In this document: positions 36,520 to 64,000 of the stretch, one piece after another
How positions within the stretch are numbered: position 1 is the stretch's first letter
Layout of the letters: every line of letters starts with the position of its first letter
Assembly: GCA_016217545.1 (NCBI GenBank)
Contig: JACRHT010000017.1
Location: forward strand, 620,001-684,000
Direction of reading: 5' to 3'
Source: Opitutia bacterium
GTDB taxonomy: Bacteria > Verrucomicrobiota > Verrucomicrobiia > Opitutales > Opitutaceae
Length of the DNA: 64,000 nucleotides
Notes under the pieces: generated by a model
What the model saw: only the letters and a program-made list of their open reading frames with translations
Databases searched by the model: none
Told to the model about the DNA's origin: nothing
Made by a program: the position numbers and the translations under genes

Positions 36520-39500
36520 TTGCTGGTCGATGAAAGCGCATACGAGTTGGTCTTGTCTCGCCCCGCACTACCTAGCCACCGGCTTGTGCCGCACGCCGTC
36601 ATTTGCGTGCTAGGCTCGGTGCTGTCCATAGGGTTCGGCGGGCGCGGCATGCTGGTTTCCGCGTCGCTCTGGGTCGGCGTGGCATGGTGGTTTTTCGCTT
36701 TGCTCGTGGTCGATCCGCGGGCTGTCACCGCTGCACTGGGCCTGCCGCGTTCCGAGTTCCACCGGCTTGCGCGGTGGAGGCGCGCGAGCGTCTTCAGTGT
36801 GGTTCTCGCGGTCTGGATGTTCAGCGGTGGGGCAATCTCTCCCGTTTTGTCGGCGGGCGCGGCCGTGCTCGCGGGACTGATATTGCGCGGGTTAATCGTC
36901 GCGGGCATCGCGCAAGACCGTCGCGTGGCGCCCGAAGTGGCACGCATCGTTGTCGTGACCGGCGCGGCGTTGCTGCTGATCCACCCCTATTTCACGGCGC
37001 GCTTGGTGGGGGCCGGCGACGCGGAGCACTATGGTCGCGCAATGGCGGATTTCCTCGCGCAGGTGCGCGGAGGTATTTTTCCGGTGTGGGTCGGGCAAAG
37101 CATCACGGCGTTCCATGGCGGGGTGCATCCCCTGCGGGTGGCGCCGTATTTCCAGCACTTGGGCGGACTCCTGGATCTCGCCACCGGCCGGACGCTCAGT
37201 CCCATCGCCGTGCAGAACCTGGTAGTCGTCGGCAGTCTGCTCGCGGCGGCGTTGAGCGCATATGCGGCCCTCAGCTCGCTCGCCGGCCGCCAGCGGTGGA
37301 GCGCGACATGGCTCGCGGTGCTGTTCGTGAGCTCGCCCGGTGTGCTCGCGCTGGTCTACGCGGGGGACATGTTGGCATCATGGGTCGCGCTGCCTTGGCT
37401 GCCCTGGCTGTTTTGGGGCTGGGCGAAGGCCTGGCGGCGTCCGGAATCGGTGGCCGGACCGTGTGCCCAGGCGCTCGCCCTCGCGCTCCTTTGGCTGGCC
37501 CATGCGCCGATCGCATTGTGGGCGTCGCTGCTCACCGCCGGCGTCGAGATCGCGCGCTGGGCGGCACAGGGTTTCCGGAGAGAGACGCTGCTGCGGCAGG
37601 CGGGCGCGGCGCTGTTGTGCATGATGCTCTGCCAATACGTCTTCGTGTCGGTGGCGACGCTCGATGTGCCGGCAAATCCCTACCTCGGCTTCGAGCTCGC
37701 GCGCGGCGCCGTCTACGACTCGATTGTCGCTGCTTGGGACGGACTATGGCGATCGGTCAGCCCCGCCGGAGCCGATCTCGTGCACGATCTCCACCTCGCG
37801 CCCGGGTTGCTCCTCGCCGGCGCGGCCGCGCTCGGCCTCGCGTGGCGCAACGACGGCGCAGGCCGGGCGTGCGCGCTCGCTGGCGGGGGACTGTTCCTCC
37901 TGCTGGTGCCTTGGCCCGGCGTGACGGATCGATTCTGGAGCTCGATGCCGGTGTTCCTGATGACCGTTTCGGAAAAATGGCCGGCGCAACGCATCTACCC
38001 GATTCTTTCCGCGCTCATCCCGATCGCAACGGTGCTCGCGCTGGCACGGGTGCGCACGTCACGCGCCCAACATCTCTGCACCGGGCTGCTGGCTCTCGGC
38101 GCGCTCGCGAGCACGTGGGAATCCAGGCACTTCCTCGCGCGCGGCCACCGCGCCACGCGCACCGAGGCGGCGACGCGCCGTTTTCTCCTCCCGGAGAATG
38201 CCACCCTCTCGCGCTATTCGTATGAGATGTGGGGCTACCTGCCGGATCATTTCTCGTTCGGCTACATGGATGCGGAAAACCAGAATCGCCTCATCAATCC
38301 CGTGACGGGCGACGTTCGCGTGTCGAACCAGCGCTTCATGCAACAGGCTGCGGCGCGAGAGCGCGCACTGCGCTTCGTCGCCGTGCCGCATGGAGCCCAG
38401 CTCGCCGGAACGATCACGTTGCCGCCCCGCAGCACGGTTTGCGTCCGCTTCCGCTTCCATGATCCTGGCGCGGAAGGCACGCTCGTGTTCACCGGCTCCC
38501 GGATTGCGCGACGGTTCGATTTGCCCGTCTCCGGCGGCCCGCGCGCGTTCGGTCCGGGCCCGCGACAAACGAAATCCACCATGCTCCGCAACGAAAGCAA
38601 CACGCCCGAAGAAGTGCGCGTGGAGTTCTTCAGTCGCAGCAACACGCCGGTCCCGGACTTTGCCGCCGTGCAATCGCTCGTGGTGCAACGCGAGCATCTT
38701 CCCGTGCGACTGACCGGGCTGACGCCGTTTGCGCTCGCGTTGAACCTTCCCTCCGAGGGCTGGCTCGAAACGCCCAAGCTCTACCTGCGCGACTATCGCG
38801 TGACCGTCGACGGACGCGCCGTCACCGCCGCTCGCTCGCCGAACGGGCTGCTCATGTTCCCCGTCCCTGCGGGCGCGTCCAGCATCCGCCTCACCTATGC
38901 CGCGCCGCCGCTTCTCCAGATATCCTTCTGGACCACGGCGGCAGCCTGGCTCCTGGTCGCGGCAGCAGCGCTGGCCAGTGTGCGTGTGTCGCACTCGCGC
39001 GTCGCCCGCGCGACGGCCAACGGCTCGCAGCCGGCCAGTGCGCGCCGGTTCGCCGCGGCCGCATTGGTGCTCGGCGTTGGCTGCACTGTGTGGGCCACGA
39101 ACCGGTGGAACGAGGATTCCGCGCCGCACGTCACGAACGCCGTGCCCGTCACGCTCCGGGCCACCTTCCCGGTCGGTCGCCACGAAGTCTACGAAACTCT
39201 CCTGAGCTGGCGCGATGAAGCGGGCGCAACCATGGCGGTCGTCGCGTTTTACCAGGACGACCGCCACGTCCGCATCGGCTGCCGCAAGGGCGGCATTCTC
39301 AAGATCCTCAGCGATCCGCTGCCCGTCAGCTATTTCGTGCCCCACCGCATTACTGTCCGGTTCGACACCAGCGCCTCTCCGCGCTTGCGCGTCGACTTCA
39401 ACGACCACCCGCTGTGGGAAACAGACTGTGCACAAAGCACCGCTGCGGGTTGGACGTTTGGCTACGGCCGCGATCTCGATCCGAAGTTCGCCGACGGCAA

Positions 39501-39543: not shown

Positions 39544-39627
39544 GGCCGCTTTAGGTGGGCGCCCCTGCGAATCCAAATCAGGCTCGCCTCCCCCGAGCGC
39601 GGCCCTTTTTCTGTTCCGCTTCACTGC

Positions 39628-42615
39628 GTGGAATCACCGCTCAAGAACATCCTCTACGTCCGACCCGATACATTCGGCGATTTGGTGATTTTCGCCTCGG
39701 CGCTCGACCAACTCATGACGGCTTGGCCGCAGGCGCGTCACACGCTCCTCGTCCGGCCGGGCTACGACACGCTCGCGCCCCTGTTCCCTGACACGGTGCG
39801 CTGGCAGGCGGCGGCGATCAACCCCTTCAAGGACGCACCCGACGCCGCGCGCGCAGAGCTGGAAAAACTCTTCGCCGCGCTCACAGACAGCCCGCCCGAC
39901 CTCATCGTCGCGGCGACGCTGAACCGCACCTGGCTCGAGGTCGCGCTTGCCGCGCGCTTCCCGCAGGCACGACGCGTCGCGCTCGGCGCGGGCGAGATTG
40001 ATCCGCTCTTCGCCAACGCCGCGCAAATCGCCTTCGGCGTCACCACGCGCGAGGTGTTTCCCGAGACCATCGCCGTCGACGAGCGCGCGCAGGAATGGGA
40101 GAACAATTTCCGCCTCGTCGACCACCTCCTCGGCCGCGCCGCGCCGCGCACCGTGCCAACGCTCCATGTGCCGCCGGCCGCGCAGCAAGCCGCCGCCGCG
40201 GTGCTCGCGCAACACGGCCTGCAGCCGAAACGTTGGGCTGCGGTCTTCGCCGCGGGCTTGGCCAACGTCGCGATCAAGGCCTGGCCCGCGGACCGCTTCG
40301 CCGCCGTCGTCCGCCACCTCCAGCAGGAGGAAAAGCTGCCCGTGCTGCTGCTCGGCCACACCAGCGAACGCGCCGCGCTCGAAGCCGTGGCCGCCGCGTG
40401 CGAGCAAGCCGGCGCCGCGCGTCCCGGGCTGTGGCTCGGTCGTGACGGCGAGATGCCTTTGCTGGCCGCCGTGCTGCAGAGCGCGCGCCTGTATTTCGGC
40501 CACGACACCGGCCCGATGCACCTCGCCGCCGCCGTCGGCACACCCGTCGCCGCGGTGTTTGGCGGCGGACACTGGCCGCGTTTCCGTCCCGCGGGGCGGC
40601 AGGTGATTTCGCTCGTGCAACCGCTGCCGTGCTTCGGGTGCAACTGGGATTGCCACTTCGGCGACGCGCCGTGCGTGAAGTTCGTCTCCGCCACCGACGC
40701 CATCGCCGCCGTGCGCCAGCTCCTCGCCGCGGGCGAACAGCCGCTCGACGTCATTCTCGAATCAAAGTCCGTCTCCGCCGACGCGTTGCGGCTCATCGCC
40801 GCCGTCACGCCGCGCTACCGCGAGTTACAGGGCGACCGGCTCGACCGTCAGCACAAGATCGAAGAACTCACCCACCTCGGCCGCGAGAAGGACGTCGAGA
40901 TCGACGACCTGAAGCGCGCCGCCGAGGAGCGCAAGGTCGAGATGGAGTCGATCAAGGCCGAGCTCGAAGCCGAGTGCGCGCAAAAGGACACCGAGATCGG
41001 CGACCTCAAGAGCGAGGCCAACACCAAGGACACCGAGATCGCCTCGCTCAAGCACGAGGCCGACGTGAAGGACGGCGAGATCGCCTCGCTCAAGTCGGAA
41101 ACCAACACCAAGGACACCGAGATCGCCTCGCTCAAATCCGAGGCGAACACCAAGGATTCCGAGATCGAGCAGCTGAAGGCGACATGCAACGAGCGCGAGG
41201 CGCTCATCTTCAAGCTCACGGACATCGTGAAGGACTTCCAGCGGCAGGTCGCCGAGCATGTCGAGGCGCACCACAAGAAGGACGCGACGATCTCGGCACG
41301 CGACGCCTCGCTGGCCGCGCTCACCACCGAGCGCGACTTGCTCACGGCCGAGCTGGCCAAGGTGCAGGCGCATTTCGCCGCGCTGCCGCTCGATGCCACG
41401 TATTACGGGCAGGCGCTGCACGACAAGGACGTCCACATCCGCAACCTCGAACTCATGCTCAAGGAAGCGCGCGCGACCGCGGACAACTACGCCGCCGGCT
41501 ATGGCGAGCTCGAGCAGACGAAACGCTTCGGCCGCTGGCTGCATGAAAAGGAAGTGGTCCTCCAGCAGCTCAAGCGCGCGTGCGACGAGCGCGAAGCGCT
41601 CATCCAGCAAATCGCCGCGCACAACGCCGGCCTCAGCCGCGCGCAGAAGACGTGGGTGGCGACCCGCGCGTTCTTCCAGCAGAAGGTCACGCGTCCGCTC
41701 GAGGCGTGGGCGTTTCGCTCGCTCGTGGAGGAGAAGGAAGTCCAGCTCGGCGTCCTTCGCCAATACGAGCCGAGACCGATCGTCTGGGACAAGGGCCTGA
41801 GGCGCAAACCGAGCGTGCCCGACGCGCACTTGCCGGAATTCGATATCGTCACGCCGTCCTACAACCAGGACCGATTCCTCGAGAGCACGATGATCAGCGT
41901 GCTCAACCAAGGCTACCCGAAGCTCCGCTACCATGTGCAGGACGGCGGCTCAAGGGACGGCAGCGTGGAAATCCTGAAGCGTTACACCGATCGGCTGACA
42001 AGCTGGGAGTCGGTCAAGGACCGCGGCCAGTCGGACGCCATCCGCCGCGGTTTCGCGCGCCTGCCCGGCCGGCCGGACGACATCATGGCGTGGCTGAACT
42101 CCGACGACTTGATCGCGCCGCGGGCGCTCCGCTACGTCGGCGAGTATTTCGCGCGCCACCCGGACGTCGACGTGATTTACGGCCACCGCATCGTGATCGA
42201 CGACTTCGATCAGGAAATTGGCCGCTGGTTCCTGCCGAAGCACGACCCGCACGTGCTGGACTGGATCGACTACGTGCCGCAGGAGACGATGTTCTTCCGC
42301 CGGCGCGCGTGGGAAGCCATCGGCGGGCTCGACCCGTCGTTCCAATTCGCACTCGATTGGGATCTGATCGCGCGCATGCAACAGGCGAAGGCGAGGATCG
42401 TGCGCGTGCCGTATTTCCTCGGTGCCTTCCGCGTGCATGTGGAACAGAAGACGAGCGCGGCAATCCACACGACGGGCCACGAGGAGATGACCCGCATCCG
42501 CACCCGGATCCATGGCCCGAATCCCGATCCGTCCCGCATCGAACATTTCGCCCGCAAAACACGGTTTGCCAGCGGTGTCACGGCGAAGCTTTTTAGCCTT
42601 GGTCTGCGAGTCTAG
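39628..42615 (+). CDS. Three-part fusion: GT9 heptosyltransferase-like, coiled coil, GT2 glycosyltransferase
   Basis: 995 residues from a GTG at 39628. Residues 1-385 are a GT9-type domain (NILYVRPDTFGDLVIFASAL, GHDTGPMHLAAAVGTPVAAVFGG, CFGCNWDCHFGDAPC). Residues about 390-720 are a long coiled coil that includes five 14-residue repeats of the form KDTEIASLKSEANT. Residues about 731-995 are a GT-A fold GT2 domain (DIVTPSYNQDRFLESTMISVLNQG, QDGGSRDGS, MAWLNSDDLIAP with the metal-binding DD, and DPSFQFALDWDL). It is a soluble cytoplasmic protein that could place two different sugars, the coiled coil acting as spacer or oligomerisation rod. The whole is in one frame, so the fusion is real rather than a readthrough. 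Confidence 0.88.
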   Translation: MESPLKNILYVRPDTFGDLVIFASALDQLMTAWPQARHTLLVRPGYDTLAPLFPDTVRWQAAAINPFKDAPDAARAELEKLFAALTDSPPDLIVAATLNRTWLEVALAARFPQARRVALGAGEIDPLFANAAQIAFGVTTREVFPETIAVDERAQEWENNFRLVDHLLGRAAPRTVPTLHVPPAAQQAAAAVLAQHGLQPKRWAAVFAAGLANVAIKAWPADRFAAVVRHLQQEEKLPVLLLGHTSERAALEAVAAACEQAGAARPGLWLGRDGEMPLLAAVLQSARLYFGHDTGPMHLAAAVGTPVAAVFGGGHWPRFRPAGRQVISLVQPLPCFGCNWDCHFGDAPCVKFVSATDAIAAVRQLLAAGEQPLDVILESKSVSADALRLIAAVTPRYRELQGDRLDRQHKIEELTHLGREKDVEIDDLKRAAEERKVEMESIKAELEAECAQKDTEIGDLKSEANTKDTEIASLKHEADVKDGEIASLKSETNTKDTEIASLKSEANTKDSEIEQLKATCNEREALIFKLTDIVKDFQRQVAEHVEAHHKKDATISARDASLAALTTERDLLTAELAKVQAHFAALPLDATYYGQALHDKDVHIRNLELMLKEARATADNYAAGYGELEQTKRFGRWLHEKEVVLQQLKRACDEREALIQQIAAHNAGLSRAQKTWVATRAFFQQKVTRPLEAWAFRSLVEEKEVQLGVLRQYEPRPIVWDKGLRRKPSVPDAHLPEFDIVTPSYNQDRFLESTMISVLNQGYPKLRYHVQDGGSRDGSVEILKRYTDRLTSWESVKDRGQSDAIRRGFARLPGRPDDIMAWLNSDDLIAPRALRYVGEYFARHPDVDVIYGHRIVIDDFDQEIGRWFLPKHDPHVLDWIDYVPQETMFFRRRAWEAIGGLDPSFQFALDWDLIARMQQAKARIVRVPYFLGAFRVHVEQKTSAAIHTTGHEEMTRIRTRIHGPNPDPSRIEHFARKTRFASGVTAKLFSLGLRV
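40984..41193 (+). repeat. Five tandem 42-bp in-frame repeats in the coiled-coil region
   Basis: Units begin at 40984, 41026, 41068, 41110 and 41152, each starting with AAG-GAC and encoding KDxEIxxLKxExNx (14 residues, two heptads). The second and fourth units are nearly the same at the DNA level. Because 42 is a multiple of three, gain or loss of units would change rod length without breaking the frame. Confidence 0.9.
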
Positions 42616-42648: not shown

Positions 42649-45600
42649 ATGCTGCCCTTCCTTCTGGTCCTTGCTCTGTTCGCGTTCTTCACCGTCGTCG
42701 GTCAGGCGGTGGTGAGCCTTTTCCGGCCCCGGCTCGGCATCCTCTGGAGCTGGTTCATCTCGCCGACCATCGGCCTCGCCACGCTCATCGTGACGATGAC
42801 GCGCCTCAACATCTGGGGCATCCCGGTAAAAACCTTCGGACCGTGGCTCGCCGTCGGCCTCTTGGTGGCGTCGGCCGCGATCCTGTGGTGGCGCAAGCCG
42901 AAGTTTCCGTGGCGCCAGCTGGGCAAGTTTGTCGGCATCGCCACGCTGTTCGTGCTCTACGCGGGCTGGCCGATGTTCAAGTTCGGCTTCAACTGGATTT
43001 CCTACGGTAACGACGACATGGCCAACTACTGTCTGGCCGCCGACCGCTTCCTGCACCACGGCTACTACGACTTGCCGGAGCAGACCCAGCTCGAGGGCCG
43101 CGACTACACGCAGCACTACTGGTTCATGCACGGCCTGCAGCAAATCCGGCCGGGCTCGGAGCTGACGCTGGCGTTCGCGTCGTCCGTCACGGGCTTGAAG
43201 CCTCACCAGGTGTTCATGCCGGTGATCATGGTGTTCTCGATGCTCCAGATCTTCGCCATGGGCGCGATCGCGATCTGGCGCGGGCGCTACCGGAAGCTCA
43301 CGCTGCTGGCGTTCCTGCTGTTCGCGACGAGCCCGCTGTTCGGCCTCGGCACGCTCTACCAGCTCATCGCCCAGGTGGGAGGCATTGCGATCCTGCTGAC
43401 GGCGTGCGCGCTGCTGCTCACGACGCGCGAGAACAACTGGCGGCGCTTCGGCCTCGCCGGCATCGTCACGACCTGTCTCGGCATTTTCTACCCCGAAGTG
43501 GCGCCATTCGTGGCGATCTCGATCGTGCTCTACGCGCTCCACCTGCGCTACACGCGGCCGGAGGCGTTCAAGCCCTTTGCGCTGACGGTGCTCGGCGCGG
43601 CCGTGATCACCTTCGCGCTGCTCGGCACGAGCACTTACCAGTTCATCAACACGCTCGTCATGCAGTCGGTCGGTTCGGCCGGTCTCGGCGCGATGGCCGA
43701 GATCAACGACCAGTCGGGCGGCCTCGTGCTGTTCCCGTGGACACTGGTGCCGTCGTTCGTCCCGATGCTGTTCGGTCTGCACGCCTTCGGCGTCGTGGGC
43801 GTCGACCCGCTGATCTCGGTGCAGATCGCGATTGGTCTGCTCTTCCTCATCTACTTCCTCTGGGCCGCGATCAAGAACCTCCTCGGTCGCGAGCCCGTGG
43901 GCTACATCGCCGTGATCATGTCGGGCCTCGGGTTCTTCCTGTTTTTCAAGGGGCAGGACTTCGGTCTCTTCAAACTCGCGATGTTCGCGCAGCCGGTCGT
44001 CACGCTGCTGCTGGCCAAGGGCTTCATTCGTCTGCTCGAGCTGAACTGGCGCCGTGCCGCGCGGACGGCGCTGGTGATCTTCATGCTCTGCACCGTGCCG
44101 AGCCACGTCTACTACAGCTACGCCTCGCTCGGTAACTACGGCGGCGGCCTCTCCGAAGTCGTGGGTGCCTCTGAACTCGGCGTGGGCTTCACCCCGCCGA
44201 AAGATCTGAAGTTCGACGCCATCGAGTCGGACATCAGCAACGTCGTCAGCGCGAAGATGCTCGCGCAATACACCAAGGACATCGACACGCGATTCCTCAG
44301 CCGCAGCTACATGGACAACATCGCGAACATCGCGGTGCTGAACTTCCTGCGCACGCCCGATCCCGACCTCGGCCCGCAAGCCCGCCTCATCGAAAAACTC
44401 GCGCTGCTCCGCCCGTTCCTGCCCAGCGAAATCATGGAGGGCGAAGTCCCCGACTACCGGGTGATGACGATCAACAAGCTCGACAACAACTGGACCGAAA
44501 ACAGCTCGCGCCACCTCAACTACGGCGACCGCCTCTTCGTCGCCATCCGCGCGCCGCTCGACCACTTCAACAAGTTCGCCCCCGGCGAGGGCTGGCACGA
44601 ACACAACATGTATCAATACCAGCTCGAGAGCCAGGTGAAGAACCGCCTTGTCTTCATCCACTCGGAGCTCGGACCGCACTACTACTCCTCCGCCCGCTTC
44701 AAGGCCGCGTTCTTCCAGCGTGAGCGCGAACCCGTCACCGGCGGCTCCGTCTACTTCCACGGCACAGGCCGCTACAACCTTTTCCGTGTGGTTCGCCCGA
44801 CCGAGAAAATCCGTCTGGTCGTCGATTTCACCCGCACCCCGCTCGGTGGCGATCGTTACAACCTGCCGAAGGGCGCCAAGGTAATCGGCAAGGAAGACTT
44901 CCCGCTCGGCTTCGTCGGCGCCGGCTCCGCCCGTATCGTCTCGCCGCTCCTCGAGCCCGAGTTCTTCGAGCAACAGGCCTACATCACGGTCGACTTCGCC
45001 GACAAGGCGCAGCCGATCATGAAGCGCAAGACCGGCCTGATGCAGCTCTGGGGCGAGAAGTTCAACCTCGACGACCGCCGTCTCGTCGGCTTCACGCGCG
45101 ACATCTCGCTCATCACCGACGAGGAATACCAAAAACTCGTTCGCCCCGCGAAGATCGGTGAATTTCCCAAGGACCTCTCACGCTATCCCGGCCTCGAGTA
45201 TTCCGGCCTGTTCGAAGACGGCTGGGTCGGCCCCGACTCGTTCTTCAAACTCGCCGGCTCGCACCCCGGCCAGGTCGTCTACTTCAAAGGCTACGTCCCC
45301 GACACGCCCGAGTATCGCACCCGCGGCCTCGACCTCACGATCAGCATCAACGACAAGCCGACTGAGATCGTGAACCTCCGCTCCGGCGAATTCACGCTCA
45401 CGCGCCTCGTCCGCGAGCCGGCCGACGTCACCACGATCCGCCTGCAATTCTCCGGCTCCATGCCCTACGGCGAACGCGACACGCGCTATCTCTCCGCCTT
45501 CGTCCGCGAGCTATCCGTCGGCGATTTGCCCGACTTCTCGTCCTTCCGCGCCATCCGCAACCGCTCCGGCGAGGGCTTCAAGCTTCAGGGCGTCGACGAC

Positions 45601-46269
45601 GACGGCTGGATCGGCCGCAGCGCCAAATTCGACGCGCCGCTCTTTAGCGATTTCAAGGTGCTGAAAATCGACTTCGAAATGCCGGGCTGGGCCAAGGTCG
45701 ACGAAAACCGCCTCACGCTCGCGCTCGACGGCCAGCGCTACTCCGCCGACATCGTCCGCAAAGGCACCTACTTCAGCGCTTTCGTCCCGCTCCTCGGCGG
45801 CAAAGCGCACAGCGTGCAGCTCGACGCCGCCGCGGAGTTCGCCCTGCCCGACGGCAAGCGCCAGCGCTCGTTCCTGATCAAGAACATCTCGTTCGAGAAC
45901 CTTAGCCGCACCGACCTCTTCGCCCGCGGCTGGCACCGCTCGGGCTATCTGTTCCAGCTCGCCCACGTCGATCAGGACGGTTGGGTTGAAAACCACGCCA
46001 CGCTCACTCTTCCGGCAACCGACAAGGCCAAACACGCCTTCATCGAAGTCATCCGCTACCCGTCGCGCAGCGACTACGCGGTCAACGTCAGCGTCGACGG
46101 CGCCGTCACCGCGCGCACGCTCGGCCTCGATAAAACCGAGCGCATCGAAGTGCCGCTCTCGGCCACTACCGCACGCCACGTCGAACTCTCCTCGGATCGC
46201 GTCTACGAACTCTCGAAAGGCGACCGCCGCCAGCGCTCGTTCCGCATCGTGAATATCGACTTCGACTGA
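42649..46269 (+). CDS. Large GT-C-like membrane protein with three tandem DGW domains
   Basis: 1206 residues. About twelve hydrophobic segments in residues 1-480; an acidic motif NDDMANY (D122, D123) in the first big loop fits a GT-C-type active site. A periplasmic region (480-840) follows, with GEGWHEHNMYQYQLES. The C-terminus has three related domains of about 115 residues at about 847-960, 970-1090 and 1095-1206, each marked by an acidic-DGW turn (FEDGWVG, DDDGWIG, DQDGWVE) and ending in an RSF-type strand in the last two (RQRSFLIKNISF, RQRSFRIVNIDF). No family was recognised for these. It is followed 21 bases later by a polyprenyl-phosphate glycosyltransferase that could supply its donor. 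Confidence 0.72.
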   Translation: MLPFLLVLALFAFFTVVGQAVVSLFRPRLGILWSWFISPTIGLATLIVTMTRLNIWGIPVKTFGPWLAVGLLVASAAILWWRKPKFPWRQLGKFVGIATLFVLYAGWPMFKFGFNWISYGNDDMANYCLAADRFLHHGYYDLPEQTQLEGRDYTQHYWFMHGLQQIRPGSELTLAFASSVTGLKPHQVFMPVIMVFSMLQIFAMGAIAIWRGRYRKLTLLAFLLFATSPLFGLGTLYQLIAQVGGIAILLTACALLLTTRENNWRRFGLAGIVTTCLGIFYPEVAPFVAISIVLYALHLRYTRPEAFKPFALTVLGAAVITFALLGTSTYQFINTLVMQSVGSAGLGAMAEINDQSGGLVLFPWTLVPSFVPMLFGLHAFGVVGVDPLISVQIAIGLLFLIYFLWAAIKNLLGREPVGYIAVIMSGLGFFLFFKGQDFGLFKLAMFAQPVVTLLLAKGFIRLLELNWRRAARTALVIFMLCTVPSHVYYSYASLGNYGGGLSEVVGASELGVGFTPPKDLKFDAIESDISNVVSAKMLAQYTKDIDTRFLSRSYMDNIANIAVLNFLRTPDPDLGPQARLIEKLALLRPFLPSEIMEGEVPDYRVMTINKLDNNWTENSSRHLNYGDRLFVAIRAPLDHFNKFAPGEGWHEHNMYQYQLESQVKNRLVFIHSELGPHYYSSARFKAAFFQREREPVTGGSVYFHGTGRYNLFRVVRPTEKIRLVVDFTRTPLGGDRYNLPKGAKVIGKEDFPLGFVGAGSARIVSPLLEPEFFEQQAYITVDFADKAQPIMKRKTGLMQLWGEKFNLDDRRLVGFTRDISLITDEEYQKLVRPAKIGEFPKDLSRYPGLEYSGLFEDGWVGPDSFFKLAGSHPGQVVYFKGYVPDTPEYRTRGLDLTISINDKPTEIVNLRSGEFTLTRLVREPADVTTIRLQFSGSMPYGERDTRYLSAFVRELSVGDLPDFSSFRAIRNRSGEGFKLQGVDDDGWIGRSAKFDAPLFSDFKVLKIDFEMPGWAKVDENRLTLALDGQRYSADIVRKGTYFSAFVPLLGGKAHSVQLDAAAEFALPDGKRQRSFLIKNISFENLSRTDLFARGWHRSGYLFQLAHVDQDGWVENHATLTLPATDKAKHAFIEVIRYPSRSDYAVNVSVDGAVTARTLGLDKTERIEVPLSATTARHVELSSDRVYELSKGDRRQRSFRIVNIDFD

Positions 46270-55993: not shown

Positions 55994-56073
55994 GCGCCCG
56001 CGCGGGATTGACCCGCTGCGACGGATTCGGAAAACATTTCGCCGGCGCCGCTGGAGCGCGAGCGCTGCACCCC

Positions 56074-57090
56074 ATGCAACTCACCCTCACCGTCCCCGGC
56101 GGCCCTCGCGCCGGTCGCATCGCAGCCTTCGACGAACTCAAGGGCCTCGCGATTCTCCTCGTTGTGCTTTACCATGCCGGAGGCGTTCTCGTCTGGCAGA
56201 ATTTCCTTCACGGCGATCTCGGCGTCGACATCTTCGTGATCCTCAGCGGTGCCGGCCTCGCGCTCGGCAGCCACGGGGACGAACCAGCGGGAAAATTTCT
56301 CGCGCGCCGGCTGCGCCGCATTGCTCCCGCTTATTGGATCGTGCTCGCCGCCTACGCCGTCGCAAATGCGGTGGTCCTCGAACAACCGGCTTCCCCGATC
56401 AACCTCGCCTTGCACGCGCTCGGTGTCCACGCGTGGTTTGGCGACGGTCTCGGCCTCTCCGTGAACGATTCGTTCTGGTTCATCACGCTCATCGTCTCCC
56501 TCTACCTGCTCTACTTGTGGTTCCGTCGCCTGCGTTCCAGCGAGTCGCTGCTGCTGGCCGGCGCGCTCGTCGCGGTGGCGGTTTCGTTCGCCTTCTTCTT
56601 CTCCGGACAATCCGCGATGTTCGCGCATCTGGGCCTCCGTCTGCCCGGCTTCGTGCTCGGCATCCTGCTCGGTCGCCTGCTGCGCGACGGACGACTCACG
56701 CTCGATGCCAACGCCACCCTCGGCGCCGCGTTTTTCATCCTCGTCTACGTGCCCTACACGCAGGGCATCGTGTTTCACACCGCGGTGGCGGGGCTCGCCC
56801 TAATTGCCGCCTACACGCTCTGGCTGCGTCCCGCCCTGCCCGCAAGTGCGGCCGCGCCCGTGCAGCGCACGCTCGCCTTCCTCGGCGCCCATTCGCTCGA
56901 AATTTTCCTGATCCACCAACCGCTGCTCCGCGACTACAATACAATCCTGCAAATTCGCTGGTTTCACGTCAGCCAACCCACACCGCCCACGCTCGCGCTG
57001 GGCATGGTCGTCGCCCTCGTGGTCACATTGCTGCTTTCGGTCGAGCTGAAGCGCCTCCTCGACCGCCTCTTCGCGCCTCGCGCGCAGTGA
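56074..57090 (+). CDS. Acyltransferase family 3 membrane protein
   Basis: 338 residues from the ATG at 56074. The family start AFDELKGLAILLVVLYHAGG holds the conserved histidine (about residue 31), followed by LGVDIFVILSGAGLAL and FLARRLRRIAPAYWI with the conserved arginines; ten or so membrane helices; late GAHSLEIFLIHQPL, also a family hallmark. It probably O-acetylates a sugar of the polysaccharide using a cytoplasmic acyl-CoA. Full length, unlike the related gene cut off at the left edge of the window. Confidence 0.88.
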   Translation: MQLTLTVPGGPRAGRIAAFDELKGLAILLVVLYHAGGVLVWQNFLHGDLGVDIFVILSGAGLALGSHGDEPAGKFLARRLRRIAPAYWIVLAAYAVANAVVLEQPASPINLALHALGVHAWFGDGLGLSVNDSFWFITLIVSLYLLYLWFRRLRSSESLLLAGALVAVAVSFAFFFSGQSAMFAHLGLRLPGFVLGILLGRLLRDGRLTLDANATLGAAFFILVYVPYTQGIVFHTAVAGLALIAAYTLWLRPALPASAAAPVQRTLAFLGAHSLEIFLIHQPLLRDYNTILQIRWFHVSQPTPPTLALGMVVALVVTLLLSVELKRLLDRLFAPRAQ

Positions 57091-57133: not shown

Positions 57134-57646
57134 ATGAAGTGGCTCATCGCGATCGTCGGCGCCGCCCTCGTGGGCTGGTTCATCTGGTTTCAGGTCAACA
57201 CGACGAAAATCTCCTACGTCAACGGCCTCGCGCCCTACGATGTCGTCCCCGGACGCGAATACATCCTCCAGCAGGATTGCTTCGTCTTCGCCGATCGCGA
57301 GCACCCCACCAGCGGCTTCCCTCTCCTCGGCACGAATCACCGCGACGCCCGCACGCGCGTCGCTGCCCTGCCCGAGACCGCCACCGCCACTGCGCGCGGC
57401 AGAGAACAGTCCGGCGTCCGCATCCTCGATGTCATCCCGCGCGGCACGCGTTTCCTCATCACCTCCGTGCGGCGCGAGCAAAGCCGCCGCGCCGGCACGG
57501 TGATCAGCTACGAGGCCAAGTTCACCGACAACGTCGAGCGGGCCTACCAGAAGGTCGATCTTCGTCCCATTCTCCTGCCGGTCGCGCACCAAGGCGACGT
57601 GCCCGAGATCGACACCACCATCGCCGCCCCATGGGTGAAACGCTGA
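57134..57646 (+). CDS. Small membrane-anchored hypothetical protein
   Basis: 170 residues from the ATG at 57134; one N-terminal helix (MKWLIAIVGAALVGWFIWF) and a soluble domain with beta strands (YDVVPGREYILQQDCFVF, SGVRILDVIPRGTRFLITSV, VISYEAKFTDNVERAYQKVDLRPILL). The repeated short strands look like a small SH3-like or barrel domain facing the periplasm. No known family was recognised. Its 3' end overlaps the start of the next membrane protein by 16 bases, so the two are probably used together. Confidence 0.65.
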   Translation: MKWLIAIVGAALVGWFIWFQVNTTKISYVNGLAPYDVVPGREYILQQDCFVFADREHPTSGFPLLGTNHRDARTRVAALPETATATARGREQSGVRILDVIPRGTRFLITSVRREQSRRAGTVISYEAKFTDNVERAYQKVDLRPILLPVAHQGDVPEIDTTIAAPWVKR

Positions 57647-59289
57647 ACGCCGCGCCCGCCCGCGTCCGCCTGTGGCTGGTCGGGCTGCTCGTCGCCGGCG
57701 CCTTGCTGGGAGAATTCCTCGCGTTCGATCGCGCCACCTCGCAGCACCACGCGTGGGTCTACCCGCGCTGGAACGACCAGATCCAATACCTCACCGAAGC
57801 CTACACCGGTTACGAACACCTGCGCGAAGTCGGTGTCGCGCGCGGCCTGTGGGACGCGCTCGTCAACCCGTCTGCCCAAGGCACGCTTCATGACTTCGGC
57901 GCGATCACCATTTTCCTCTTCGCCGGCCCGTCGCGCAGCGCCGCACTCGCCTTGAACATGCTGGCGTTCGTCGCGTGGCAAGCTGCCCTTGCGCTCGCCG
58001 TGTGGCGTCGTTCGCGCTCGCTCGCGTTCACGGTGCTCGCCGCCGCACTGCCGCTCGCGCTGGCGGGACCGTGGCTCGTGCGACCGGGCACCGCGATCGA
58101 CTTCCGCCTCGACCATCTCGCGGTGTGCGCCTTTGGCGTGCTCAGCGCGGCGCTGCTAGCGAGCGACGGCTTCCGTTCGCGCCGCGGGTCGCTCGCCTTC
58201 GGCGCCGCCTGCGCGCTGGCCCTGCTCACGCGGTTTCTTACGGGCACGTATCTCGTGCTCGTCTTCGTCGGGCTGTTCGTCTGGCTGGTGCGCCAGCCGG
58301 ATCGCCGCACGCGGCTCGCCCATCTGCTCTTCTCCGCCGCCCTCGCAGCCGCGCTCGCCGCACCGATCTTCTGGATCAACCGCGACTGGGTCTGGAACTA
58401 CTACGTCGTCGGCCACTTCATCGGCCCCGAAAGCGCGCTGCGCTCGCCGCACCTCGGTCTCCTTGATTCCGTGCGGTTCGTCTTCGGCCATTGGGCGGAC
58501 TGGCACGCGCGCGCCAGCTTCGGTCTCGCCGCGCTGGGACTCGCGGCTTTCGCCGCCGCGGTGCGCCTGCTGCCGCGCAAAGCCGACGCCGCGCCCGCCG
58601 CCATCGCGCGCGAGTGGCTCGGGCTGGGTGCCCTCCTCTTCTTCGCGCCCGCGGTCGTGCTCGTTTTCCATTCTCAAAAATCGGAAGTCGTGCTCGGCAT
58701 CCTGAACCCCGGTGCCGTGCTCGCACTGCTCGGTCTCGTGCGCTGGGCCGCCCCCGGCCCGCGCGCGCTGGCGGTCGCAGCGGGGGCCGCGCTGCTGTTT
58801 GGCGGCACCTCATTCATGCTCGCGCTGCGCGCCGGCGCCAACGATCCCGGCTTCGCCGCCGACGCACGCCGCGCGGCCACCATCGCCGACCAGCTCTACG
58901 AGGCCTCGCGCTGCGCCGGCCTCAATCGCCCCAATATCGCCACCGACGAAATCACCGATTACCTCGACGCACAGATCCTCCGCGTCGTCTGCTACGAGCG
59001 CCACCGCCGCTGGGTGCAGTTTGAAATGAAACTCCCGACTGGTATCGCCGCCGAGGCCGACGACGTCATCGTGCGACGCCTGCGCGAGAGCGATTTCGTC
59101 TTTCTGACCGAGAGCGGATCGCGCAGCCAATGGCCTTACGACGAGCAGATGCGACGCCTGCACCCGCAACTCACGGTGATCGCCGCGCGCGAGCTGGAAC
59201 GCGCGGCCGACTACGAACTCTTCGGTCGCAAGGTCGTGCTCTACTGTCGCCGCGGCATCACGCTCGCCGCCCCGGCACAACAGCGTTGA
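57631..59289 (+). CDS. GT-C/PMT-like integral membrane protein
   Basis: 552 residues from the ATG at 57631, inside the end of the preceding gene. About ten hydrophobic segments; the first loop has YPRWNDQIQYLTEAYTGYEHL with an acidic residue at 49, as in GT-C enzymes. Further marks: RLDHLAVCAFGVLSA, TRFLTGTYLVLVFVGL, and FHSQKSEVVLGILNPG. The last 130 residues (after about 420) are soluble, with a cysteine pair (SRCAGLN and RVVCYERH) and end FGRKVVLYCRRG. It lacks the lectin-like domains of its neighbours. Probable glycosyltransferase using a lipid-linked donor (inference). Confidence 0.68.
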   Translation: MGETLNAAPARVRLWLVGLLVAGALLGEFLAFDRATSQHHAWVYPRWNDQIQYLTEAYTGYEHLREVGVARGLWDALVNPSAQGTLHDFGAITIFLFAGPSRSAALALNMLAFVAWQAALALAVWRRSRSLAFTVLAAALPLALAGPWLVRPGTAIDFRLDHLAVCAFGVLSAALLASDGFRSRRGSLAFGAACALALLTRFLTGTYLVLVFVGLFVWLVRQPDRRTRLAHLLFSAALAAALAAPIFWINRDWVWNYYVVGHFIGPESALRSPHLGLLDSVRFVFGHWADWHARASFGLAALGLAAFAAAVRLLPRKADAAPAAIAREWLGLGALLFFAPAVVLVFHSQKSEVVLGILNPGAVLALLGLVRWAAPGPRALAVAAGAALLFGGTSFMLALRAGANDPGFAADARRAATIADQLYEASRCAGLNRPNIATDEITDYLDAQILRVVCYERHRRWVQFEMKLPTGIAAEADDVIVRRLRESDFVFLTESGSRSQWPYDEQMRRLHPQLTVIAARELERAADYELFGRKVVLYCRRGITLAAPAQQR

Positions 59290-59323: not shown

Positions 59324-60136
59324 ATGAAAATCCTTCTCACGGGCTCCAGCTCCGGCATAGGCCGCGCTCTCGCCGAGCGCCTCGTCCAGCACGGCCACGA
59401 AGTCTGGGGCCTCGCCCGCTCGGCGCAGGAATCGATCGGGCCGAAGTTCCATGCCATCCGCTGCGACGTGGGCGAGTGGGCCCAGGTCGAGCGCGCGTGC
59501 GCCGAGGTGCACGCGCAGACCGCCTCGCTCGATGCCGTCATCGCCTGCGCGGGCGTGCAGGGCGAGATCGGCCCGGCGCTCAGCGCCGACCCGCTCGGGT
59601 GGAGCGCCACCGTGCGCGCGAATCTCGACGGCACGTTCTACACGCTGCGCGCCAGCCAGCCGCTCCTCGCCCGCACCGCGCGCCGCGCCAAAGTCGTGTG
59701 CTTCTCCGGCGGCGGCGCCACGAAGTCACGTCTCAATTTCTCCGCCTACGGCGTGGCCAAAACCGGCGTCGTCCGCCTGGTCGAAACCATCGCCGAGGAA
59801 ATGCGCGGCCAGCCCTACGACATCAACGCCATCGCGCCGGGCGCCATCAACACTCGCCTCACCGACGAGGTCATCGCCAAGGGCCCCGCGATCGTCGGCG
59901 CGGCCGAATACGCCGCGGCGCTGAAGCAGAAGCAAACCGGCGGATCCTCGCTCGCCCGCGCGCTCGATCTCGTCGAATACCTGCTCTCCGAACAATCCGA
60001 CGGCATCACCGGCCGCCTGCTCAGCGCACCATGGGACCCTTGGGAGACGCTGCACACGAAGGCCGTGGAACTCGCCGCGTCGGACATCTACACCTTGCGC
60101 CGCATCGTGCCGGAAGAGCGCGGCAAGAAGTTCTGA
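59324..60136 (+). CDS. SDR-family oxidoreductase
   Basis: 270 residues. Classical SDR: LLTGSSSGIGRALAERL, AVIACAGVQGEIGP, FSGGGATKSRLNFSAYGVAKTGVVRL with the catalytic tyrosine and lysine, and APGAINTRLTDEV. A serine in the strand before the active site is in VCFSGGG. C-terminal ITGRLLSAPWDPWETL is the usual closing loop. Last gene of the plus-strand arm; its stop lies 4 bases from that of the convergent oxidoreductase. Substrate likely a sugar or sugar nucleotide, by context only. Confidence 0.85.
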   Translation: MKILLTGSSSGIGRALAERLVQHGHEVWGLARSAQESIGPKFHAIRCDVGEWAQVERACAEVHAQTASLDAVIACAGVQGEIGPALSADPLGWSATVRANLDGTFYTLRASQPLLARTARRAKVVCFSGGGATKSRLNFSAYGVAKTGVVRLVETIAEEMRGQPYDINAIAPGAINTRLTDEVIAKGPAIVGAAEYAAALKQKQTGGSSLARALDLVEYLLSEQSDGITGRLLSAPWDPWETLHTKAVELAASDIYTLRRIVPEERGKKF

Positions 60137-60140
60137 GGCG

Positions 60141-61619
60141 TCATTCGCCCACGCGCCGCGGCACCGCGCGACCCGCATTGCCGTCTTCACCCGAGCGGAC
60201 TTCCTCGTGGTATTCCGCGTCGGTGTTGACGTTCCAGAGATTGAACGCGCCACCCTCGAGATTTTTCACGGCCAGCATCGCCGTCATCATCGAGTGGTCC
60301 TGGTTGTTGTATTTGTGCATGCCGTTGCGGCCGATCACCTGCAGGTTGGAAAACGGCGCGAGCGCAGCGCGGATCGCGTCGACGTTCGCCTGATAGCCAG
60401 GATCGTAAACCGGGTAAGCCTTCTCCACGCGCACCACACTGCCCTCGCGCACCTGCGCGGCGCGAGCGAGGCCGAGTTGCTCGAGTTCGCGTGTGCCGAG
60501 CGCAATGAGGTCGGCATCGCTCATCGACCACAGGCCGTCGCCCTCGAAACAGAAATACTCCAACCCGAGGCACGTCGTGCCTGCCCGACCGATCATCGCC
60601 TCGCTCCAGTTCTTGAAATTCTGGATGCGCCCCAGCTTCACGCCCGGTTCATGGATGTAGATCCAGTTGTCCGGAAACGGATTCTCGCCCTCAACCACGA
60701 GCGCCACGGTGAGAAAATCGCGATAGCTCAACGCCCGCGCCACCTGCTGCGCCGCGGCCGGCAGCGGCGGATCGAACGCCAGCGCGGTTTCGCGCAGTGG
60801 CATCGAGAGGATGAACGCGTCGGCCTCGAACGTCTCCCGCCCGCCGTCCGCGCGCACCGCCTCGAGCGCGGTGACGCGCCCGTTCGCGTGGCGAATGCGC
60901 TCCACGCGCCAGCCGAGCCGCACCTCGCCGCCGAGCGCGCGGATGTCGGCCGCCGTCTTTTCCCACATCTGCCCCGGACCGAAGCGCGGGTAGTCGAAGG
61001 TGTCGATGAGCGTCTTGATGACCTCGCCGGACTTCTTCGGCGCACCACGGAAAGCGTTCAGGATCGCGCGCGAGAGCGAGAGGCCCTTGATGCGCTGCGC
61101 GGCCCAGTCGGCGCTCAACTGGCTGGTCGGGATGCCCCAGACTTTCTCCGTGTAGGTTTTGAAGAAAATATTGAAGAGTCGCCGGCCAAAGCGATTCGAG
61201 ACCCAGTCCTCGAACGACACCTCAGGTTCGCGCGGGAACACCCGCGCCCAAGCGTAGCTGACCACGCACGCCATACTCGTGAAGACGCCAAGATTCGAGA
61301 GCGCGTTCCACGGCCGCAGCGGGTAATCGAAATAACGCCCGCGATAGTAGATGCGCGACATGCGCTGCACCTGGATGAAATCGTCCGGCAGCCGCTCTTT
61401 CCACCAGCGAGTGACCTCCGGCGACTTGCTGAAGAACCGGTGTCCGCCGATGTCGAAGCGATACCCGCCGCTGCGCACCGTGCGCGAAATGCCGCCGACA
61501 TACTCCGGATCCTTCTCGAGCACGACCGCGCTCCAACCCTCCCTCTGCGCTTCGTAGGCAGCGGTGAGGCCGGCCGGGCCGGCGCCTACGACCAGAACAC
61601 GACGGGGGGACTTCAGCAT
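60141..61619 (-). CDS. FAD/NAD-binding oxidoreductase, UDP-galactopyranose-mutase-like
   Basis: 492 residues from the ATG at 61619 (MLKSPRRVLVVG); a TTG at 61676 overlapping the previous stop (TTGA) would add 19 residues. N-terminal FAD-binding loop VVGAGPAGLTAAYEA, then VLEKDPEYVGGISRTV and FDIGGHRFFSKS, the signature of the amine-oxidase/UGM-like group. The middle has YFDYPLRPWNALS, TEKVWGIP and the C-terminal GRNGMHKYNNQDHSMMTAML second FAD contact. Members stand in polysaccharide loci beside GtrB- or GT-C-type genes, but their reaction is not settled. True UGM is shorter (about 380 residues), so a ring-contracting mutase role is possible but unproven. Confidence 0.8.
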   Translation of the reverse strand: MLKSPRRVLVVGAGPAGLTAAYEAQREGWSAVVLEKDPEYVGGISRTVRSGGYRFDIGGHRFFSKSPEVTRWWKERLPDDFIQVQRMSRIYYRGRYFDYPLRPWNALSNLGVFTSMACVVSYAWARVFPREPEVSFEDWVSNRFGRRLFNIFFKTYTEKVWGIPTSQLSADWAAQRIKGLSLSRAILNAFRGAPKKSGEVIKTLIDTFDYPRFGPGQMWEKTAADIRALGGEVRLGWRVERIRHANGRVTALEAVRADGGRETFEADAFILSMPLRETALAFDPPLPAAAQQVARALSYRDFLTVALVVEGENPFPDNWIYIHEPGVKLGRIQNFKNWSEAMIGRAGTTCLGLEYFCFEGDGLWSMSDADLIALGTRELEQLGLARAAQVREGSVVRVEKAYPVYDPGYQANVDAIRAALAPFSNLQVIGRNGMHKYNNQDHSMMTAMLAVKNLEGGAFNLWNVNTDAEYHEEVRSGEDGNAGRAVPRRVGE

Positions 61620-61672
61620 GGAAAGGTCCGAGCGAAAGGAGCGCTCCGGAGCTACGCAACCAATTCCTTCGG

Positions 61673-64000
61673 TCAACCACCCACTGCGGGATCAACCCGC
61701 TGCACCCGCAGGATTTCTCCGCTGAAAACCGCCGCACACGACGATGCGCCAATGTCGTTGCGCCCAGTCTTTATCTCTGCCGGCGCCGTCGGGTGCGGCG
61801 CCGCCGGCACATCGAGGACGACACGGCCATCGACCCGCACGCGCAAGAGTTCGGCGGCCCGCGCGCGTGCTTCCGGCGTGAGCGCGCTCCAGGCCGCTGC
61901 CCGCGGAGTGAACAGATTGCCCAGCGCGATCTGGACCGTCGCCACGCCAGCCGGCTCAATCGCCAGCGGCGGAGTCTGCGGTCCGCCGCGACCCCAGCAG
62001 TCGTAGCCGATCACCGCATGCGTCGCGTCCACATAGCGCACCCAAATCACATCCGCCGCGCCGGTCCGTCCGGTCACGAGCAACGGCTCCGCGCGTCCGA
62101 TCGGCAGCTTCTCCGGCCAGCGCAACGTCAGCGCAATCGGGCCGAAATCGGCCGGCGGCTCCGGCCATGCGGACAACCGCTCCGCCGCCAACCGCTCGCC
62201 GCGGAAGCGCACATCCGCCGTGCTCGCGCGGATGGCGTTGTAGCCGAATGCCACCTCGCTCGCCAACGCCGGATGATAGTGCCGGGCCGCACGCAGCACT
62301 TCGCGACCGTTGAAACCCAATCGGAACTCCCCGAGCGTCCGCACACCCGGCGCCGCCACGGGATGCAGCCCGCCGAAATCGACGTCGACCACTTGCTCCT
62401 CGAGCGGATCGAACGAAACCACGTCCGACTCGAGCAAGCCGCTGCTCCATGAGTCATGAGCGAACCGCACGCGCCCGGGCGCGACGTAGAAGACGTAAAC
62501 CAGATCGCCCGCACCGCTGCGCCCCGTGCTGATCAGTGGCTCGCCGACCATGTTCACGAACGACGGAAAGCGTAGCCTCAGGCGCACCGGCCCGCTGCCG
62601 AGCCCCGCCGTCACACTCGCGCGATCGAACGGCAGCACGCGCCAGCTCTCGATGCGCCCGCTGAACCGCCGCTCGATCCAATCGAGCCCGCTCGCCGTCC
62701 CGAACTCCCAATCGAGCCGGCTCGAACCGTGAAAAACCGATTCCGCGCGCAGCACCTCGCGGCCATCGCAACGCACACTCACGCGCCGCCGCAGCACGGC
62801 GACCTCCGCCGCGCTCCACCCGTCGAAAAACGGATGTTCCGCCGGGGGATACAGGCCGCCGAGATCCACGACAAACTTCCGCCGCTCGCCGGGCCGGGCC
62901 TCGAATGCATCTCCGTAGACGCCCGGAAATCCGCGGTGCGCGAAGCCCACGCGGAAGGTCGCCCCGCCCGTGCGCTGCAAGAACACTGCGTCGCGTCCCT
63001 CGGCCGTCGCGAACAGCGGCTGCTGCGCGCCGACCGCGCAATCCGCCATTGTGACCGTTAGTTCGAGCGGACCGTGTTTCCAACTCAGCACACGCTCCGC
63101 CGCGGCCGGCACGAGATTCGCCACATGCGCCCACCGTGTAGTGTCTGCGGGCGGCAGCGTAAAAGCCATCGAATGCAACGCGGTCCAGGCGAGCGACAAC
63201 CCGATCACGATGCGCCCGAGCATGCGCGCGGTCGGCCACGCGAGGAGCGCGACCACCCACGCCGCAACCATCAGCGGACCGAGAAAATCCAGTTCGTAGC
63301 GCTCGAGTTGGTAAGAGTAGAGCAACAGCGTTCCGAGCGTCGTCACCCCCGCCGCCGCCGCGAAGAGAGTGGCTGCCCCGGTCGCCGACGAGCCGGACTC
63401 CGCGCGGCGACTCCACGCGAACCACGGCGCCCCCAGCGCCATCAGCGCCGCCGGCGCCCACGTGAGCAGGCCGAACGTCTCCTCGCGCAGGCCGACGAAT
63501 GGGTAATAGATCGAGTAACGCGCAGGCGAGAGTAGATAGGCGTCGAAACATCGCGCAAAAAACTCCGGGCCGAAGAGCTTGAAATGCCTCATGTCGATCG
63601 CGGCGAATTGATAGCTCAACCCAAACTCAAGCGGATCGCCGAAGCGCGCGTAGTTGTAGCCCGCGAGCGCCGCGCCCACGAGCGCCGCCGGCCCCACCGT
63701 CGCGCCGAGCAATATCAGCGCGGCGCGACGCTCACCGGCACGTTGCCGCCGCCACGCCAGCGCCGCACCCGCGACGCCGAACACGGGCAGCACGAAAAGA
63801 AAATTCGGCCGCGCGCCCACGGCGGCGCCGGCGAAAAAACTTCCGCCCGCCAGCCACGCCGCCACCGCGCCGCGTCCCTCGCGCCGCCACGCCGCGAGCA
63901 GCGCGTTGGCCGCCGCCATCGTGCACGCAAACGCGCACGCGATCGGCACCTGATAAAATTGCGCACCCGCGAGGTTGTAGTGCAGAAACGCGCCCCACCC
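61673..64000 (-). CDS. GT-C-like membrane protein with lectin-like domains (N-terminus beyond window)
   Basis: About 775 residues are visible and the frame is open through the right edge, so the N-terminus is missing; FLHYNLAGAQFYQVPIACAF at the edge aligns with FAITSSPTFYTVPISTAF of the protein at 50134, about 190 residues from its start. Membrane helices reach to about visible residue 290 (YNYARFGDPLEFGL is shared with both paralogues). At least two, probably three, beta-rich domains follow, with PLFATAEGRDAVFLQ, PLISTGRSGAGDLVYVFY and PLLVTGRTGAADVIWVRY, each with a RVRFAHDSW-type strand. It has the most such domains of the family. Coupled to the oxidoreductase downstream by a 4-base overlap if the TTG start is used. 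Confidence 0.72.
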   Translation of the reverse strand, partial: GWGAFLHYNLAGAQFYQVPIACAFACTMAAANALLAAWRREGRGAVAAWLAGGSFFAGAAVGARPNFLFVLPVFGVAGAALAWRRQRAGERRAALILLGATVGPAALVGAALAGYNYARFGDPLEFGLSYQFAAIDMRHFKLFGPEFFARCFDAYLLSPARYSIYYPFVGLREETFGLLTWAPAALMALGAPWFAWSRRAESGSSATGAATLFAAAAGVTTLGTLLLYSYQLERYELDFLGPLMVAAWVVALLAWPTARMLGRIVIGLSLAWTALHSMAFTLPPADTTRWAHVANLVPAAAERVLSWKHGPLELTVTMADCAVGAQQPLFATAEGRDAVFLQRTGGATFRVGFAHRGFPGVYGDAFEARPGERRKFVVDLGGLYPPAEHPFFDGWSAAEVAVLRRRVSVRCDGREVLRAESVFHGSSRLDWEFGTASGLDWIERRFSGRIESWRVLPFDRASVTAGLGSGPVRLRLRFPSFVNMVGEPLISTGRSGAGDLVYVFYVAPGRVRFAHDSWSSGLLESDVVSFDPLEEQVVDVDFGGLHPVAAPGVRTLGEFRLGFNGREVLRAARHYHPALASEVAFGYNAIRASTADVRFRGERLAAERLSAWPEPPADFGPIALTLRWPEKLPIGRAEPLLVTGRTGAADVIWVRYVDATHAVIGYDCWGRGGPQTPPLAIEPAGVATVQIALGNLFTPRAAAWSALTPEARARAAELLRVRVDGRVVLDVPAAPHPTAPAEIKTGRNDIGASSCAAVFSGEILRVQRVDPAVGG

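Follow-up and report, generated by a model that had tools for sequence, protein, structure and literature searches.

Three-component systems built around glycosyltransferases of the C fold (GT-C) have already been published, including one with a sugar-binding tail and an O-antigen exported by an ATP-binding cassette (ABC) transporter (PMC11127046). In the latter, a GT-C enzyme of family GT136 with a carbohydrate-binding tail acts on the ABC-exported O-polysaccharide (PMC11127046). Systems composed of GtrA, a glycosyltransferase of the A fold (GT-A) and a GT-C include a lactococcal set of three GT-A/GT-C pairs with one common flippase (PMC8035078), a gene cluster of Pontiella lists yfhO, a GT2 and gtrA (PMC7356697), and the mycobacterial GT-C enzyme EmbC bears a lectin-like module (PMC3044687). 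The locus described here was found in a stretch of 64,000 nucleotides (the window; positions 620,001 to 684,000 of contig JACRHT010000017.1, assembly GCA_016217545.1, with contig coordinates prefixed C17 below) from the 5.09-Mb genome of an Opitutia bacterium (Opitutaceae). It contains ten GT-C-type genes (protein C, described below, counted) and one GtrB-type gene within ~37 kb. We read it, with a probability of roughly 0.6, as an expanded three-component GtrA/GtrB/GT-C system that would decorate an ABC-exported polysaccharide and employ many lectin-tailed transferases per donor gene.

Six of the ten GT-C-type genes belong to a family that we term B. Seven B genes were identified in the genome, at 50134..52536 and 53585..55993 (plus strand), at 61673 (minus strand, 948 residues; 61673..64000 in the window, the gene extending to window-equivalent position 64519, C17:684519) and at four sites outside the window, six of them lying in the main locus. 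The six other proteins are 27-29% identical to 53585. Neither Pfam nor NCBIfam, in which B proteins were searched, holds an entry that describes them, so that databases probably list such genes as hypothetical membrane proteins. A search of the B profile against PDB sequences gave no significant match (best E value 0.032). For structure prediction, a 57-row alignment was assembled from 55 of 147 hit frames, which span model positions 25-770, and two window proteins. The AlphaFold model of 53585 obtained with it reached a predicted local distance difference test (pLDDT) score of 90 and a predicted template modelling (pTM) score of 0.91. When compared to the PDB with Foldseek, its multi-helix core matched AglB (E 2.9e-5), ArnT (E 4.2e-5) and also PglB, the yeast oligosaccharyltransferase, AftA and ALG3 (E values up to 1.3e-2), as expected for a GT-C fold. 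The tail matched beta-sandwiches of the laminin-G/ConA-like fold, with laminin LG4-5 (E 5.5e-7), galectins, CBM40 and the LG domain of SHBG among the targets, followed at lower rank by the binding domains of bacterial toxins and sialidases. The model thus supports the assignment of B as a GT-C-type core with LamG/galectin-like outer domains, as the first-pass annotation, made from the letters of the window, had proposed for its seven membrane proteins, with outer domains in most of them; for families A and D (see below) the support is indirect. The charge at the loop ends of B agrees with 11 helices and a tail outside the membrane, although this agreement is a consistency check only, because the loops were assigned partly by charge.

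The annotation had listed seven open reading frames, which are all present, the one at 61673 reaching past the window end, and had given them 9-12 helices each and an acidic motif in the first loop; a hydropathy count yielded 8-12 membrane segments. Acidic first-loop residues are conserved in families B, A and D. The simple motif breaks down in B, however: position D47, which we take to be the usual catalytic position, is acidic in 35/57 proteins only, and another first-loop position, D87, in 57/57. The corresponding residues are D/E59 and D69 in family A (25/25 each), D49 in D (8/8) and D122-D123 in C (5/6 rows, the sixth being blank at this site). Four further residues of B, N275, R278, R403 and Y404, are kept in 57/57 proteins and lie in loops assigned to the outside.

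The C-terminal domain with the pattern P-L-L-x-T-G ... F-S-G-R-I, noted earlier for three proteins in two or three copies, was located by hmmsearch with the profile of this domain. It occurs twice in 50134 (51580..52059, residues 483-642; 52075..52509, residues 648-792), twice in 53585 (55052..55522, residues 490-646; 55535..55957, residues 651-791) and three times in 61673 (minus strand; 62618..63079, residues 481-634; 62162..62596, residues 642-786; 61691..62149, residues 791-943). In addition, a copy closes a fourth protein, 36520 of family A (39142..39525, residues ~875-1002; E 2.7e-14), and can be aligned to the first tail domain of B (hhalign, E 7.6e-8), although the cores of A and B do not align. 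No tail match was obtained by hmmsearch in 47240 or 57631. No laminin or lectin family was among the seven Pfam families matched by any of the 57 B proteins (E <= 0.01).

Named loci of relatives were collected with one peptide pattern, which gave 141 stretches and 109 relatives, the best 80 of which were kept, in 76 loci. They are mostly from Opitutaceae/Opitutia, with single loci from Akkermansiaceae and Candidatus Caenarcanales and three from Acidobacteriota, and the gene order recurs among them. In the frames of these loci, whole or cut by contig ends, tails were absent from 30 B frames and present in one copy in 23, two in 29, three in 26 (one of them with a GtrA fusion) and four in 10; in six further B frames the tail stands ahead of the core, and in the sequences inspected (3 of 6) it sits between the first two predicted helices. 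Family A frames carried no tail (24), one (3) or three (4). The remaining frames comprised C (7), D (7), tails without a recognized core (14) and none of these (3). One 1959-residue frame (L027:10866-16742, plus strand) is a fusion of a family A protein with another multi-helix part and three LamG-like domains, and a frame in locus L038 equals it in length and domain order. Among pairs of B proteins with 50-70% identical cores (n = 34, pairs not independent), core identity averaged 57% and tail identity 41-42%; in the pair from loci L058 and L056, a core identity of 64% contrasts with 23% for the first tail. By these sequence comparisons, the tails of B diverge faster than the cores, and the lectin domains are reshuffled among related loci.

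On the donor side, the product of 46291..47223 (plus strand) matches phrog_841, 'GtrB-like O-antigen conversion' (E 3.8e-89), and carries the DxDxQ motif (DVDLQ at residue 92), a possible hallmark of polyisoprenyl-phosphate transferases (PMC10821137). No other GtrB-type match falls in the interval 33295-73436, where the remaining GT2 match belongs to a GT9 fusion. Of the two polyprenyl-phosphate sugar synthases claimed for positions 36520 to 64000, this one is clear; the second, 6169, lies outside that range, scores lower (156 bits against 242.6 bits for 46291 with NCBIfam PgfS) and lacks an exact DxDxQ. The latter gene belongs to a second possible set on the minus strand (2541-7104), together with a flippase-like LPG_synthase_TM protein (5135) and an 865-residue protein with ~9 helices and no family match (2541). 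A GtrA domain (PF04138; 38.8 and 43.1 bits, cut-off 26.1) forms the N-terminus of the B protein encoded at C17:687764-691060 and is the only GtrA domain in the genome at E <= 0.001; a similar GtrA-B fusion, judged by similarity to this domain, is present in locus L025. The physical fusion of GtrA to a GT-C suggests that flipping may be coupled directly to transfer. A sugar epimerase/dehydratase dependent on nicotinamide adenine dinucleotide (52592..53578, plus strand; Pfam Epimerase 158.5 bits), which probably serves donor synthesis, scores about equally as dTDP-glucose 4,6-dehydratase and as GalE in NCBIfam, both far under cut-off. A GtrB-type synthase, a GtrA-type flippase domain and a GT-C transferase, the three parts of a Gtr system, are encoded in the same locus.

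Just upstream of the array, on the plus strand, lie the genes for a Wzm-like polysaccharide exporter permease (33295..34116; Pfam ABC2_membrane 74.2 bits; NCBIfam galactan Wzm 43.7 bits, far under the cut-off of 380) and an ATPase with a C-terminal Wzt_C domain (34118..35458; Pfam ABC_tran 81.8 bits; Wzt_C 53.1 bits, cut-off 30.4). Their proximity is circumstantial evidence for action on an exported polysaccharide. Together with GtrB and the GtrA domain fused to B, the Wzm/Wzt pair supports the proposal that side chains are added outside the inner membrane. In the system as we propose it, the epimerase 52592, perhaps with the dehydrogenase 59324, is predicted to make a nucleotide sugar, and GtrB (46291) would load the sugar onto undecaprenyl phosphate. 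Aided by the B-fused GtrA domain, the lipid-linked sugar would then flip outward, where the GT-C battery (the six main-locus B proteins, both A proteins, D and possibly C) would transfer it to the polysaccharide exported by Wzm/Wzt. The LamG-like tails may hold particular acceptor sites, in which case most enzymes would attach one and the same sugar, each at its own position, in the manner of the serotype-converting Gtr enzymes; a small number may draw on sugars from GtrB-like genes elsewhere in the genome. A multi-sugar system, as the annotation suggested, may exist, since eight matches to 46291, including 6169, occur in the genome (E <= 0.001), yet the stretch itself has one GtrB-type gene.

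The proteins had also been described as one array of paralogues. This is too strong, since the core of A does not align with B and C gives no significant alignment, and a single paralogous set was rejected; the locus instead combines family B with a distant relative (D), a separate family (A) and an orphan (C). Family A comprises 36520..39543 (start codon uncertain, a crude gene caller favouring 36649) and 47240..49327, both on the plus strand and mutually homologous, and forms a YfhO/GtrII-like family apart from B. Its matches to YfhO, GtrII and PgfM are weak and in this genome all under the curated cut-offs, the scores with YfhO (PF09586) being 18.8 bits (36520, C-terminal part), 13.9 bits (47240) and 15.9 bits against a cut-off of 28.5; 4 of 25 A members match PF09586 at E <= 0.001, a count made by E value, with cut-offs not listed. 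Protein D (57631..59289, plus strand) can be aligned to the B core across 352 columns (hhalign, E 4.4e-9). These relationships indirectly support a GT-C-like nature of both A and D. Recent tandem duplication was likewise rejected as the source of the B copies: in a tree of 108 rows (the 7 own proteins and 101 frames from the named loci, of 147 frames with matches), each of the seven clustered with copies from elsewhere, and no two copies of this genome fell together. The tree was built with a quick method and had weak support for 31 of its 105 inner branches. B repertoires vary between genomes.

Conservation was compared in 16 of the named loci that hold at least 3 of 7 core genes, after dropping matches that covered < 60% of the query. 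Conservation is high for GtrB (81-87% identity to the gene described here, in 9 loci) and for the epimerase (72-91%, in 16), whereas A and B are 25-49% identical in related loci, which includes the best B matches. The sequences paired in these B comparisons may not be orthologous, in itself a sign of turnover. The corresponding values were 65-79% for the methyltransferase at 49377 (9 loci), 46-65% for C and 39-70% for the short-chain dehydrogenase. In a survey of the phylum, with 3 candidates scored in each genome, B was matched at E <= 0.001 in 19 of 288 genomes and at E < 1e-20 in 7 of these; within the family, 49 of 150 genomes had a match, 42 of them below 1e-20. For co-occurrence, the 7 of these 49 genomes with E > 1e-20 were set aside as weak, and orthologs were defined by at least 69% (GtrB) or at least 68% (epimerase) identity, 3 of the 55 epimerase genomes being counted by partial matches. 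A GtrB ortholog was present in 35/42 genomes with B and 16/108 without it (Fisher's exact test, 3.6e-15), and an epimerase ortholog in 37/42 and 18/108, respectively (2.8e-16).

Several observations weigh against the proposed decoration system or its link to B. The genomes are related, so that the Fisher values overstate the evidence, and the GtrB-epimerase pair also occurs without B, 16/51 GtrB-positive genomes having no strong B match. Six other genomes of the same genus gave no strong B match and one weak one (E 7e-4), and two of the six carry the GtrB ortholog; B is patchy in its distribution. Among the matches listed, 21 of 40 genomes had no B within 30 kb of GtrB or the epimerase, in assemblies that are fragmented and with 6 candidates scored per genome (proximity was covered for 40 of the 42 genomes, those with B core matches listed), and one B gene of the present genome lies far from the locus on contig C12 (L020:5842-8268, plus strand). 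D (47-49%), the 170-residue protein (33-43%) and the GT9-coiled coil-GT2 fusion (50-53%) are not strongly conserved in the compared loci, so that the contrast with the transferases is clearest for GtrB and the epimerase. The eight GtrB-like matches in the genome make it uncertain that one donor serves all enzymes. The template modelling scores of 53585 to its GT-C targets (0.22-0.46, Foldseek) argue for similarity in fold, not close kinship, and D47 is non-acidic in 22/57 B proteins.

A further-reaching interpretation, possible yet in our judgement doubtful, is that a hitherto unnamed Opitutaceae GT-C family with swappable LamG-type tails constitutes a one-donor, many-enzyme assembly kit on the outer face of the inner membrane. 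Lectin domains would move between the unaligned cores of A and B and between positions, at the C-terminus or behind the first predicted helix, so that the surface glycan would diversify by exchange of acceptor readers and not of donor chemistry. The locus itself, with its many sister enzymes, one donor gene set and exchangeable tails, is a natural test case for acceptor choice by GT-C enzymes.

The Emb/Aft enzymes of mycobacteria assemble arabinan with a single donor. By analogy, the GT-C set could use one lipid-linked sugar to build a branched glycan on the outer side of the membrane, with no single-site decoration, a reading that we consider unlikely. The ratio of one GtrB-type gene to ten GT-C-type genes would fit it, as would the one to four tails on most B proteins and the sugar-binding tail of EmbC (PMC3044687). 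It further draws on protein C (42649..46269, plus strand; a membrane part and three C-terminal beta repeats, no family match), an apparent orphan in the locus, for which alignment to A, B and D gave no significant result (best probability 15.9%) and which has matches in 35 of the 150 genomes of the family (E <= 1e-10), frequently as the immediate neighbour of GtrB. In a Foldseek search with its model, AftD ranked second and third and AftA was also listed, but the first match was an unrelated insecticidal protein and the model was poor overall (pLDDT 55.5, pTM 0.37, with the three beta repeats mostly near 80), so that the AftD matches are a hint only. The differences in B repertoire between genomes would also fit variants of decoration.

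The Pgf system of streptococci glycosylates proteins, and a comparable role in the glycosylation of secreted or surface proteins, not of polysaccharide, appears improbable for the present locus. The best NCBIfam match of GtrB is PgfS (242.6 bits), 36520 weakly matches PgfM1 and PgfM2 (E 0.0022 and 0.017), and the window encodes a 2156-residue frame (26234-32704, minus strand) with 13 I-set immunoglobulin stretches and RCC1 and FG-GAP repeats. The Pgf matches, however, are far under cut-off (500 for PgfS), phrog_841 points to O-antigen conversion, and an ABC exporter with Wzt_C lies just upstream. Very improbable is a different job (polymerase, ligase or glycan-binding scaffold) for some or all of these GT-C-like folds, in spite of the incomplete conservation of D47 and the scattered weak Pfam matches among the 57 B proteins (DUF6541 and TMEM260-like, 2 each; PMT_2, PMT, Rnf-Nqr, DUF6350 and DUF3995, 1 each; E <= 0.01, with cut-offs not listed), as D87, R403 and Y404 are kept in loops assigned outside and the family is associated with GtrB and a fused GtrA.

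Genes are closely packed from 33295 to window-equivalent 73436. On the plus strand, Wzm and Wzt are followed by a methyltransferase (35455..36396; Pfam Methyltransf_23 91.4 bits), the A gene 36520, a GT9-coiled coil-GT2 fusion (39628..42615; Pfam Glyco_transf_9 71 bits, Glycos_transf_2 61.6 bits, with weak coiled-coil matches in the stretch that separates the two), C, GtrB, the A gene 47240, the conserved methyltransferase (49377..50120; Pfam Methyltransf_11 50.7 bits), B (50134), the epimerase, B (53585), a membrane acyltransferase (56074..57090; Acyl_transf_3, 110.1 bits on the longer reading 55684-57090), a 170-residue protein with one membrane segment (57134..57646; no Pfam or NCBIfam match, a neighbour in 11 named loci), D and the conserved short-chain dehydrogenase (59324..60136; Pfam adh_short_C2 112.1 bits, 21 loci). 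On the minus strand follow a flavin adenine dinucleotide-dependent oxidoreductase of the PRK07208 type (60141..61619; NCBIfam 682.3 bits, cut-off 389) and a run of four B genes (C17:681673-693436) that extends past the window; these overlap by 4 bases at 2/3 junctions. The linker of the GT9-GT2 fusion holds a 42-bp tandem repeat (40984-41167, 4.4 copies), and its coiled coil might serve as a chain-length ruler similar to that of WbdD (PMC11127046). A scan for promoters and terminators gave no signal above chance, and the seven membrane proteins had no match in PHROGs at E <= 0.01, which gives no sign of phage kinship without speaking against it. The frame that precedes the B gene on contig C12 presumably encodes a PrmC-type methyltransferase, and the N-terminus of a frame at 12253-13293 (minus strand) resembles what we take to be a NeuB-type nonulosonic-acid synthase.

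The first-pass annotation had regarded the system as undescribed, which does not hold for three-component GT-C systems as such (PMC11127046), but no description of the many-transferase, LamG-tailed version was found among the matches listed from the open-licence literature, in which no paper naming LamG and GT-C together was found either. The Citrobacter youngae O1 pentofuranose system is alike in its GT136 enzyme ORF12, a GT-C with a C-terminal carbohydrate-binding domain, and its ABC-exported O-polysaccharide (PMC11127046). An Arg-Tyr pair needed in ORF12 (R349-Y350) recalls the conserved R403-Y404 of B, a motif resemblance only, as the two were not aligned (PMC11127046). That system relies on a single GT-C, a donor enzyme of the UbiA type and an immunoglobulin-like domain, whereas the present locus combines GtrB, numerous GT-Cs and tails of the LamG type. 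The arabinosyltransferases EmbA/B/C and AftD of mycobacteria resemble the locus as several GT-Cs with lectin-like C-terminal domains and a common lipid-linked donor (PMC3044687, PMC11127046), but no Emb/Aft chain of the PDB matched the B profile at E <= 1 and no known arabinan donor genes were identified here. The YfhO/CsbB/GtcA system of teichoic acid glycosylation (PMC8035078) and PgfM1/M2 resemble the locus through the weak YfhO, GtrII and PgfM matches of family A; unlike in those systems, scores in this genome remain under the cut-offs and some A proteins carry the LamG-like tail common to B. The Gtr systems of Shigella and Salmonella (GtrA, GtrB and a type-specific Gtr) offer a GtrB of the O-antigen-conversion family, a GtrA domain and GT-C enzymes, with variable transferases beside conserved donor genes (PMC11127046). 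The present locus differs from them in its ten GT-C-type genes per GtrB-type gene, its LamG-like tails and the fusion of GtrA to a transferase.

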